NCBI RefSeq assembly: GCF_011044495.1
Contig: NZ_CP049143.1
Location: 1,984,001-2,048,000 of the forward strand
Direction of reading: 5' to 3'
Origin: Roseimicrobium sp. ORNL1
Lineage (GTDB): Bacteria; Verrucomicrobiota; Verrucomicrobiia; Verrucomicrobiales; Verrucomicrobiaceae
Length of the DNA: 64,000 nt
Positions 22,371 to 58,759 of the stretch are shown piece by piece. How positions within the stretch are numbered: position 1 is the stretch's first letter; each line of letters begins with the position of its first letter. The position numbers and the translations under genes were made by a program. A model generated the notes under the pieces. The model worked only from the letters and a program-made list of their open reading frames with translations, searched no databases and had not been told where the DNA came from.

Positions 22371-23039
22371 AAGTCGCGAAGCGACGACCGTGTCTTAGCC
22401 CGGCCTTTCAAGGCCGGGTAGGTGGAGGTGTAGGTCGTGTCGCGAAGCGACACCCGAACCCTCTGCCACACCCATGGCCACCACGTTCCACAATCTCAAT
22501 GTCCACGTCATCTGGAGCACCAAAGAGCGGGTTCCCTGGATCACACAGGATATCGAGCAGCGAGTTTGGGAATACATGGCCGGAATTGCGCGTCAGAAAC
22601 GCATGACTCCGATTTGCGTCGGCGGCTGTGACGACCATGTTCACGCGCTGCTTCGGTTGCCTGCCAATCTGGACACAAGCAAAGCCGTCCAGCTTATCAA
22701 AGGATCGTCCTCAAAATGGATTCACGAGACGTTTCCCAAGTTGCGGGCATTCCGATGGCAGGATGGATTTGGCGCGTTTTCGGTCGCGCAGTCCGGGATT
22801 CCTGCGGTGTTCAAGTACATCAAGAATCAGCGGGCGCACCATCGCAAGAAGACGTTCAAGGAGGAGTTTGTGGAGTTCCTCGTGAAGAATGAAATCGATT
22901 TTGATGAGGGTCATCTTTGGGATTGAAGACGTGGATGGGATGAACAGGCGGTTCGGGTGTCGCTTCGCGACACGATTGTCGCACGTGCCTACCCGGCCTT
23001 GAAAGGCCGGGCTAAGACACGGTCGTCGCTTCGCGACTG
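22371..23039 (+). mobile_element. REP-associated tyrosine transposase (RAYT) unit with inverted palindromic ends
   Basis: About 670 bases. The left end carries three palindromes: GTCGCGAAGCGAC (22373-22385), CCCGGCCTTTCAAGGCCGGG (22399-22418) and GTGTCGCGAAGCGACAC (22437-22453). The right end carries the same three in reverse order and orientation: 22957-22973, 22992-23011 and 23025-23037. The stretch between the first two palindromes is identical on both sides. One transposase ORF fills the middle. No target-site duplication is obvious, as expected for HUH single-strand transposition. No other copy of these palindromes was seen in the window. Confidence 0.9.
22474..22926 (+). CDS. IS200-like/RAYT transposase (Y1_Tnp, HUH)
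   Basis: 150 residues, intact. The opening HNLNVHVIWSTKERVPWI is typical of the family. The HUH pair is His55-Val-His57 in CDDHVHALLRL, and the catalytic tyrosine is Tyr115 in FKYIKNQRAHHRKKTF. The family cuts and joins single-stranded DNA at hairpin ends. All catalytic residues are present, so it may be active or recently active. Confidence 0.93.
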   Translation: MATTFHNLNVHVIWSTKERVPWITQDIEQRVWEYMAGIARQKRMTPICVGGCDDHVHALLRLPANLDTSKAVQLIKGSSSKWIHETFPKLRAFRWQDGFGAFSVAQSGIPAVFKYIKNQRAHHRKKTFKEEFVEFLVKNEIDFDEGHLWD

Positions 23040-57328: not shown

Positions 57329-57361
57329 GGGGTGTTAGGAACGGTTGGGCCGGTGAGGGTG

Positions 57362-57460
57362 GAACGCAAAGCAACAAAGCAGCAAAGGGGGACAATGAGT
57401 TCAGGCTGGAAGCCTAACCTCCATCGAATCTTTGCTGCTTTTGCTGCTTTGCGTTTCATC
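57362..57460. repeat. Inverted pair of CGCAAAGCAGC-type repeats
   Basis: GAACGCAAAGCAACAAAGCA (57362-57381) continues to GCAAAGG. The inverted partner CTTTGCTGCTTTTGCTGCTT (57430-57449) ends in TGCGTTTCATC. The arms flank about 40 bases. It lies just upstream of the leader region described next. Confidence 0.8.
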
Positions 57461-57501: not shown

Positions 57502-57530
57502 TTGACGTCCCGACATTCGTACCTTATGGA
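57502..57530 (+). promoter_or_regulatory. Possible promoter of the EamA leader transcript
   Basis: TTGACG (57502-57507) and TATGGA (57525-57530) are separated by 17 bases. If used, transcription would start near 57537, just before the leader ATG at 57541, which would make translation nearly leaderless and lose the GGAG at 57528-57531. A promoter farther upstream is the alternative. Confidence 0.35.
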
Positions 57531-57540
57531 GTGAATGTTC

Positions 57541-57630
57541 ATGCGCGCCATCGCCGCCATCATTATTAGCGTCACTCGCCTCTGGCTTATCAAGCCGGAC
57601 GGGCGGAGTGGTGACGCGGTGATGCGATGA
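57541..57630 (+). CDS. Leader peptide with clustered Ile codons, upstream of the EamA gene
   Basis: 29 codons, ATG 57541 to TGA 57628-57630, beginning MRAIAAIIISVTRLWLIK. Four of the first nine codons are Ile (ATC, ATC, ATT, ATT), with three consecutive; Val, Leu, Leu and another Ile follow. GGAG at 57528-57531 gives a 9-base spacing, and an in-frame ATG at 57535 is the alternative start. The composition and placement match leader peptides of ilv/thr-type attenuators. It is too short to be a functional protein on its own. Confidence 0.7.
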   Translation: MRAIAAIIISVTRLWLIKPDGRSGDAVMR

Positions 57631-57725
57631 CGCAGCCGCAAGCGAAACGCGAGACAGCAAACAGCAGCAGTCGTTTCCCAAAGTTTCCCCACCACCCGCC
57701 CGCCTCACCGGTGAGCGGGTTTTTT
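57544..57725 (+). promoter_or_regulatory. Transcription attenuator (ribosome-mediated) of the EamA exporter gene
   Basis: Four pairing segments are visible. Segment 1 is 57544-57558 (CGCGCCATCGCCGCC). Segment 2 is 57601-57613 (GGGCGG-A-GTGGTG), segment 3 is 57690-57709 and segment 4 is 57710-57719. Segment 2 pairs with CACCAC-CCGCCC (57690-57701), 12 bp with one bulge. That uses the CCC at 57699-57701 needed for the 3:4 terminator. Segments 1 and 2 also pair partly (CCGCC/GGCGG, CCAT/GTGG, CGCG/CGCG). A ribosome stalled on the Ile codons (57559-57567) would mask segment 1, free segment 2 and allow 2:3, preventing termination. Continued translation would favour termination. This reading is structural inference. 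Confidence 0.65.
57699..57725 (+). terminator. Attenuator terminator upstream of the EamA gene
   Basis: CCCG-C-CTCACC (57699-57709) pairs with GGTGAG-CGGG (57710-57719), with one bulged C, followed by six T residues (57720-57725) and GTTTT. The fold needs a short loop taken from the central CCGG, so the actual stem is probably 8-9 bp. It stands 45 bases before the ATG of the transporter and terminates no complete upstream gene. Confidence 0.75.
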
Positions 57726-57769
57726 GTTTTCCAGCTCTTCGCCCTTCCTCCGCAAGCCCGACCAATCTC

Positions 57770-58759
57770 ATGTCCCAGACCTCGACTTCTTCCTCTTCCT
57801 CAGCTCTCCGATCCTCGATGGCCACCTACGGCATCGTGGCGGCGAGTTCCCTGTTCTTTTGTTCCAAGGCGGTTTTTGTGAAGCTGGCCTTCCGCTATCA
57901 AATGGATGCGGTCACCGTGCTGGCGCTGCGGATGGCGATGGCTCTTCCCTTTTTCCTGATCGGCGGCTGGCTCGACGCCCGGAAAAATCCACGGCCCATT
58001 TCACGGAAAGACTGGGGAATGCTGGCACTGCTCGGCTTCTTCGGCTGGTACCTTTCTTCCGTGGTGAACTTCATGGGTCTGGAGCACGTGAGCGTGGGGC
58101 TGGAGCGGATGATCCTCTATACCTATCCTTCGATCGTGATTCTCGGGTCGGTGCTCTTTTTTAAGAAGCCGCTGCGGTTCGTCGTGGTCGCGGCGATGGC
58201 TGTTTCCTACGTTGGAATCATCATTGGCTACCAAGCCGAAGCTGCCACTTCCAGCTCGGAAACGCTCTATGGTGCCCTTCTCGTTTTTGCGAGCGCGGTT
58301 AGTTATGCCGTTTTTGTCATGTTAAGTGGCCAAGTCGTTTCGCGCATCGGTCCCATCCGATTTACCTCCTGCGTGGTGGGTTTTTCCGCAATTTTCGTAC
58401 TCATTCATTTTTGCCTGACACACCCTCCCTCACTGCTTATCAACCTTTCTCCCGGCGCCTACGGGTGCGGAATTGCGCTTGCGATTGCGGGCACGGTAAT
58501 TCCGTCTTATCTGTTCGGAATCGGTCTAAAAAGGGCTGGATCCCAGGCTTTTGCGATCATTGGCATGGTGGGCCCCCTGGGTACTGTTTTCCTAGGGTGG
58601 TTCATTTTGGGAGAGGCGTTGAATCTCACCCAGATCCTTGGTCTCCTCCTCACCTTGGCAGGTGGTCTCGCTGTAAGCTTGTTAAAGGACAAGCCCGTTT
58701 CTGAGGCTACTATGAGGCCAGAGAAAGCTAAGGTAATGCGTGACGCATCTCAGTCCTGA
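57770..58759 (+). CDS. EamA/DMT-family transporter (RhaT/YdcZ-type exporter)
   Basis: 329 residues with ten predicted helices in two EamA halves: VAASSLFFCSKAVFVKLAFR, LGFFGWYLSSVVNFMGLEHV, SIVILGSVLFFKKPLR and, in the second half, YAVFVMLSGQVVSRIGPIRF, GCGIALAIAGTVIPSYLFGI, GMVGPLGTVFLGWFILGEAL. The family exports small metabolites, including amino acids (RhtA, YdeD). The isoleucine-codon attenuator just upstream suggests that its expression tracks branched-chain amino acid supply (inference). The 3' end overlaps the convergent CHAD gene by 32 bases. Confidence 0.9.
   Translation: MSQTSTSSSSSALRSSMATYGIVAASSLFFCSKAVFVKLAFRYQMDAVTVLALRMAMALPFFLIGGWLDARKNPRPISRKDWGMLALLGFFGWYLSSVVNFMGLEHVSVGLERMILYTYPSIVILGSVLFFKKPLRFVVVAAMAVSYVGIIIGYQAEAATSSSETLYGALLVFASAVSYAVFVMLSGQVVSRIGPIRFTSCVVGFSAIFVLIHFCLTHPPSLLINLSPGAYGCGIALAIAGTVIPSYLFGIGLKRAGSQAFAIIGMVGPLGTVFLGWFILGEALNLTQILGLLLTLAGGLAVSLLKDKPVSEATMRPEKAKVMRDASQS

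Follow-up and report, generated by a model that had tools for sequence, protein, structure and literature searches.

A candidate tryptophan-decoding attenuator ahead of an EamA-family transporter gene in Verrucomicrobiota

A leader upstream of an EamA-family gene

The window, by which we mean the whole stretch of 64,000 nucleotides analyzed here, is taken from the complete 7.96 Mb genome of Roseimicrobium sp. ORNL1. Within it a gene on the + strand (57770..58759) encodes a 329-aa protein of the EamA family of the drug/metabolite transporter (DMT) superfamily, with the ten-helix DMT fold (PF00892, E 3.3e-32). It is probably transcribed alone, because the genes on either side of it in the window are encoded on the opposite strand. 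The predicted structure (pLDDT 83) matches 5i20 (YddG), together with nucleotide-sugar transporters and the choline importer LicB. Since the fold is thus shared by exporters and importers, it does not decide the direction of transport. No match to the transporter sequence was found in the PDB. The TIGR00950 and, more weakly, YddG models match the protein, all below cut-off, with the YddG aromatic amino acid exporter model NF050091 giving 22.5 bits against a cut-off of 300 bits. We sought the substrate in this similarity and in the gene neighborhood, and neither yielded one. The similarity to YddG is weak, and a paralogue from outside the clade (L187) scores equally well; ten neighboring proteins from nine loci have no family in common.

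Upstream of the gene, on the same strand, lies an ORF of 29 codons (MRAIAAIIISVTRLWLIKPDGRSGDAVMR; 57541..57630, with ATG at 57541 and TGA at 57628-57630). It includes three consecutive isoleucine codons, Ile7 to Ile9 (57559..57567), and a single tryptophan codon, Trp15 (57583..57585). The ORF is followed by an intrinsic terminator (57699..57725) comprising a stem at 57699-57719 and six T nucleotides at 57720-57725. The hairpin has a calculated stability of -9.7 kcal/mol as a 21-mer, and -12.3 kcal/mol when the flanking pairs are included. It is missing from the output of a stock terminator scanner, probably due to a bulged C in the stem. The strand that we call segment 2 (57601..57613) is complementary to segment 3 (57690..57701), which overlaps the 5' arm of the terminator, so that the antiterminator and the terminator are mutually exclusive. 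This duplex has 12 pairs and one bulge, with a stability of -23.0 kcal/mol. The best duplex between the stretch from ORF to terminator and the region of the terminator 5' arm reaches -30.8 kcal/mol, and none of 400 shuffled sequences does as well (mean -15.1, minimum -24.5 kcal/mol). The ORF, terminator and antiterminator described in an earlier note on this DNA are therefore all borne out.

That note also paired segment 2 with a segment 1 at 57544-57558. Such pairing is possible, but locally segment 2 pairs most stably with 57570-57588. The resulting hairpin 1:2 (57570..57616, -25.2 kcal/mol), which is also present in the centroid fold, sequesters segment 2 and contains the Trp15 codon in its 5' arm. 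The folding of the window leader taken as a whole is not above chance (z -1.37, with 17 of 200 shuffles equally good), and neither this leader nor 15 orthologue loci contain a match to Rfam at curated score.

A candidate sigma-70 promoter (57502..57530, + strand) can be placed immediately upstream, with a -35 element TTGACG (57502-57507) separated by 17 nt from a -10 element TATGGA (57525-57530), and with the ATG 10 nt past the -10. If this promoter is used the leader mRNA would be almost without a 5' UTR. It is of moderate quality, scoring 13 compared with 8.8 (sd 1.6) for random positions, and its spacing is kept in another genome of the genus (L002), where 3 of the 29 residues of the leader peptide differ. 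Taking 45 leaders together, the best sigma-70-like score just 5' of the leader start averages 14.2, against the same random value. No convincing promoter was found by this scoring before the Verrucomicrobial leaders L003, L005, L006 and L025.

Two features of the surrounding DNA may be recorded in passing. The gap that separates the leader from the divergent upstream gene contains nested inverted repeats of the CAAAGCAGCAAAG type (57360-57458), the core 12-mer of which is confined to this interval within the window. Elsewhere, two inverted copies of the Rfam 'Acido-Lenti-1 RNA' (22372-22418 on the - strand and 22992-23038 on the + strand) flank a 150-aa Y1 transposase (22474-22926; PF01797, E 2e-29). 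In this setting the 'sRNA' resembles the termini of a REP-associated transposase element.

Occurrence of such leaders in two phyla

Orthologues of the transporter are thinly spread across the Verrucomicrobiota. They were found in 11 of 57 close relatives (E 1e-3), 9 of 286 genomes of the class (E 1e-40) and 5 of 387 genomes of the phylum (E 1e-50), and from a search of named genomes the best 80 of 203 loci were used. From these searches 19 Verrucomicrobiota orthologues were drawn for comparison, leaving out L010 and L011 (E about 5e-4) and the duplicates L012-L014, L021-L023, L028 and L029. A short ORF stands upstream of the gene in 17 of the 19, and in all 17 there is a correspondingly placed terminator. 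In the remaining two (L019 and L020), which are long-branched in the tree, coding sequence lies directly upstream. The earlier note had named a conserved short ORF with alternative pairing in relatives as support, and these 17 provide it. The antiterminator duplexes of 13 representatives are collectively stronger than those of shuffled sequences (Fisher p 2e-7), but not significantly so in every relative; L009 and L025 are no better than shuffles (p 0.48 and 0.50), and L003, L006, L007, L017, L018 and L027 have p above 0.05.

In a tree of 64 rows, which could not place L117, L120 and L177, the presence of the leader requires 7 changes compared with a mean of 19.1 on shuffling. The Bacteroidota form the sister of the Verrucomicrobial clade, and no leaders are found there. 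A search of the 57 relatives with the leader peptide recovered only the source genome and G001 at E < 0.1, although this search is insensitive and known leaders were also missed. Taking the conserved arrangement of a presumably translated ORF and terminator together with the antiterminator of the window, we are confident that a ribosome-mediated transcription attenuator precedes the window EamA gene, as had been proposed.

Analogous leaders occur in Proteobacteria. Six Methylophilus orthologues (L030, L035, L036, L039, L052 and L091) are preceded by leaders of the form ...[RK].ALWLVAT.... In the order to which Methylophilus belongs, 142 of 300 genomes contain an orthologue (E 1e-30), and a Trp-containing leader, most commonly of the form [KM]RLWLW, was present in 24 of the 68 upstream regions read. 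Most of these leaders belong to the closest homologues (20 of 29 in L105-L133 compared with 4 of 39 in L135-L173); L134, at a contig end, was left out. Most proteobacterial orthologues have far stronger TTGACA-TATAGT promoters, with the -10 lying 6-10 nt 5' of the leader ATG, and from this sequence a leader RNA with little or no 5' UTR is expected.

When an RNA model constructed from 17 proteobacterial leaders was run against 369 further genomes of the class, it gave 6 matches, of which the four best (30-40 bits) all lie directly 5' of EamA orthologues; the two weakest (L181 and L182) do not, and the model revealed no convincing second target. The search was filtered, and missed the Methylophilus genome G329 even though its locus scores E 6e-5. 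The model found no match among the Verrucomicrobial leaders (best E 0.77), and the link between the phyla therefore rests on the peptide motif, its position and the orthologous gene. The sequences suggest common descent of the leaders in the two phyla; a convergent origin is possible.

The proteobacterial leaders have no obvious terminator, and terminator-like hairpins are rare before non-Verrucomicrobial homologues generally (4 of 71 loci, L030-L100). They contain a 3:4 hairpin followed by an anti-Shine-Dalgarno segment that could pair either with the loop arm of 3:4 or with the Shine-Dalgarno sequence of the transporter gene. Helices 2:3 and 3:5 covary (0 of 500 shuffles each as high) and 3:4 does so less (21 of 500), by shuffles that leave relatedness in. 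The 5:6 helix that would sequester the Shine-Dalgarno sequence exhibits complementarity, with 77.6% of cells paired, but does not covary (500 of 500 shuffles reach the same level). These leaders may hide the Shine-Dalgarno sequence in place of forming a terminator. The anti-Shine-Dalgarno logic is identical in leaders whose sequences differ (GGGTCT/AGACCC, GGACTT/AGGTCC and GGGCTC/GAGCCC in L030, L052 and related leaders, and in L111-L156), which suggests a translational switch. In the leader L109 the Trp lies six codons 5' of its normal position (SWRLQQSTVAV). There the hexamer CTGTGG is retained at the normal position but in a different reading frame, hinting at a constraint on it at the RNA level.

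The decoded codon

The earlier note assigned control to the three isoleucine codons and, on that basis, inclined to an importer or a supply response; the predicted fold, as said, fits importers and exporters alike. We collected 51 leaders, 17 from Verrucomicrobiota and 34 proteobacterial. Tryptophan is present in all 51, where at an assumed usage of 1.3% some 36 would be expected to lack it, a figure that is not a probability since the rows are related. A single Trp is found in 33 leaders, that of the window included, and WW in none. Leucine (51 of 51) and arginine (50 of 51) are also near-universal. The isoleucine run does exceed chance, with III-containing ORFs upstream of 2 of the 19 orthologues for ATG starts (shuffle mean 0.03), or 3 for any start. 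Yet only three of the 51 leaders contain it, those of the window's genus (L001 and L002, three codons) and that of another genus of the family (L004, four codons), and it is absent from all 34 proteobacterial leaders. Ten leaders have no isoleucine whatever, including the sister genus (Verrucomicrobium type; L003, L005 and L006), where there is no run but three Trp; L003 and L006 group with L001 and L002 in the tree, from which L005 is absent.

ORFs encoding [LI]W[LIVM] lie upstream of 11 of the 19 orthologues when only ATG starts are allowed (shuffle mean 0.12, maximum 1), and of 13 with any start (mean 0.70, maximum 3). Because this motif was chosen after the peptides had been seen, selection of leaders by their promoter provides a cleaner test. 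Requiring a promoter 5-11 nt upstream of the start codon with a score cut of 14, and independently of the motif, 37 ORFs were selected from 115 regions, and 33 of these contain Trp; the exceptions are L166, L168, L058 and L066. The window leader, scoring 13, falls below the cut, and the set takes in just 2 of the 17 Verrucomicrobial leaders, both among the 33.

We have also calculated the folding of the leader RNA while stepping a ribosome through it codon by codon, ending the transcript at the terminator 5' arm and scoring the pairing of that arm with segment 2. This pairing is high until the ribosome passes the Trp codon and then drops, most clearly in L002, L004, L015-L018, L024, L026 and the Methylophilus set. 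For 26 representatives chosen by hand from 43 leaders (L121 and L169 being excluded as the automatic choice of hairpin looked wrong), in 19 the alternative pairing disappears 1-6 codons past a Trp, compared with a mean of 8.0 and a maximum of 16 in 5000 permutations. Collapse is late in the sister genus L003, L005 and L006 (9-10 codons past Trp), and L007 fails. A Trp codon is thus conserved just before segment 2, where a stalled ribosome would mask only segment 1.

In the window leader, partition-function folding gives an antiterminator pairing of 0.46 with the ribosome anywhere from Met1 to Ser10, rising to 0.66 at Trp15 and falling to 0.01 at Lys18, before a partial recovery that reaches 0.74 at Asp20. 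Because other pairings reappear, the automatic rule does not register a collapse until 12 codons past Trp. A stall at Ile7-9 leaves the pairing at 0.46, identical to the unblocked level. The minimum-energy structures do not discriminate between codons, giving 2:3 for every stall tested from Ile4 to Trp15. The isoleucine run stands as more than chance, but its role as the sensed element is not supported. The sensed codon is most probably Trp rather than Ile, and we consider the Trp codon a likely point of stalling.

Mechanism, alternatives and relation to known systems

On balance we favor, as the best single explanation, an attenuator that controls the window transporter through the decoding of Trp. 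The ribosome would trail RNA polymerase through the leader ORF. On reaching the stop codon it would cover segment 2 (or hairpin 1:2 would reform), whereupon segment 3 would enter the terminator and transcription would end at about 57725. A ribosome stalled at the Trp codon would instead mask segment 1, so that the free segment 2 could pair with segment 3 and the transporter gene would be transcribed. Slow decoding of Trp is the most likely trigger, and might arise from a low level of charged tRNA-Trp through shortage of Trp or inhibition of Trp-tRNA synthetase; on whether the supply of charged tRNA-Trp is itself the signal we find the case evenly balanced. Several observations detract from this explanation, namely the predominance of a single Trp and lack of WW, unlike classical amino-acid attenuators, the late collapse point of the window itself, the antiterminators of some relatives that do not exceed shuffles, and the near-universal Leu and Arg. 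According to PMC1183508, classical amino-acid attenuators have at least two control codons, and sensitivity is low where such codons make up a small fraction. The single codon found in most leaders here lowers the claim to a classical starvation attenuator, rather than to stalling as such.

For this reason we weigh arrest by the nascent peptide at [R/K]-[LI]-W-[LI] as a rival reading, although we doubt it. As with TnaC or erm, a small ligand such as free Trp, an aromatic compound or a drug might take part, and its excess would open the switch, which would suit an exporter. The mostly solitary Trp speaks for this reading, and its neighbors are conserved, with Leu before 51 of 72 Trp residues, Leu after 40 and Arg at -2 in 22; moreover RLWLIKPDGRSG in the window parallels RLWLVKPTGRGG in the proteobacterial leader L180. 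Yet the neighbors do vary (SW, GW, KW and CW all occur), the RNA helix may account for part of the conservation, and both the peptide end and the distance from Trp to stop are variable, unlike TnaC. In favor of this reading, YddG is included in the second-ranking NCBIfam family for all eight leader-bearing proteins tested, always below cut-off; against it, the paralogue L187 from outside the clade matches YddG too. Control by isoleucine or branched-chain amino acids, at least in the window's genus, seems improbable to us. The Ile run, the 2:3 pairing in minimum-energy folds for stalls at Ile4 to Ile9, and Leu in every leader (compatible with a Leu signal) speak for it, and are outweighed by the 48 leaders without the run and the unraised pairing on stalling at Ile7-9.

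A general sensor of translation stress or antibiotics, in which the switch of a drug exporter opens whenever a ribosome is slow on the leader, would have precedents in bmrB before BmrCD (PMC4191407) and toiL (PMC12121999), and many leaders still allow the pairing with stalls anywhere before Trp. It leaves unexplained the Trp adjoining segment 2 in every leader, and we think it a poor prospect. That an ordinary terminator of an upstream transcript has fallen beside a random ORF is scarcely credible. The global folding of the leader is unremarkable and the upstream intergenic stretch also bears repeats, but on the gene map of the window no + strand gene ends upstream of the leader, and conservation across orthologues exceeds that in shuffled controls, so that chance is largely refuted.

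The textbook role of attenuators that carry amino-acid control codons is to regulate biosynthesis. One Trp-codon attenuator controls a resistance function, that of the indolmycin-resistant Trp-tRNA synthetase of Streptomyces; it is of the same codon type as the leader described here, but acts on a synthetase and in Actinobacteria. TnaC stalls at its own stop codon and acts through Rho, whereas the stall proposed here is at or just past Trp and would act on a terminator or Shine-Dalgarno helix. Both involve a short peptide in which Trp matters, and free Trp is reported to cause TnaC to stall (PMC8429421). The trp operon attenuators (E. coli trpL and Sinorhizobium meliloti trpLE(G)) share the Trp-codon leader ORF and the alternative of terminator and antiterminator, but they control biosynthesis, whereas this leader precedes a DMT transporter. 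The S. meliloti trpL RNA starts at the ATG and is thus leaderless, according to PMC7298713, as most of the proteobacterial leaders here would be. In bmrB-bmrCD, erm and toiL-topAI a ribosome stalled on an upstream ORF likewise opens a terminator or a ribosome-binding site, and bmrB serves an exporter (PMC4191407); these sense drugs, and the accessible texts report no invariant Trp codon for them. By eye, trpE and ilvB of the source genome have no comparable leader. A literature search of non-subscription papers gave no title on an attenuator before an EamA gene, and no paper joining EamA, leader peptide and attenuator. The attenuator before the window gene, differing from known ribosome-mediated examples and lacking a match in Rfam or that search, is a new variant.

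More speculatively, and in our view doubtfully, the leaders might represent an undescribed and widely spread device of one DMT transporter subfamily. A leaderless or near-leaderless upstream ORF encoding a Trp-centered peptide, [RK]LW[LI], would act as a sensor of the nascent chain or of Trp charging, common to Verrucomicrobiota and Pseudomonadota, with the output platform exchanged between intrinsic terminator and masking of the Shine-Dalgarno sequence. Its transporter would serve as a relief valve, letting out aromatic metabolites or natural inhibitors of Trp-tRNA synthetase.

An attenuator before an orphan EamA/DMT gene links transporters whose substrate is unknown to a signal that can be tested, the decoding of tryptophan. 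A Trp-centered leader that may work through a different output platform in each phylum constitutes a natural experiment in attenuator evolution, and the leader gives a direct handle on the substrate and direction of the transporter.
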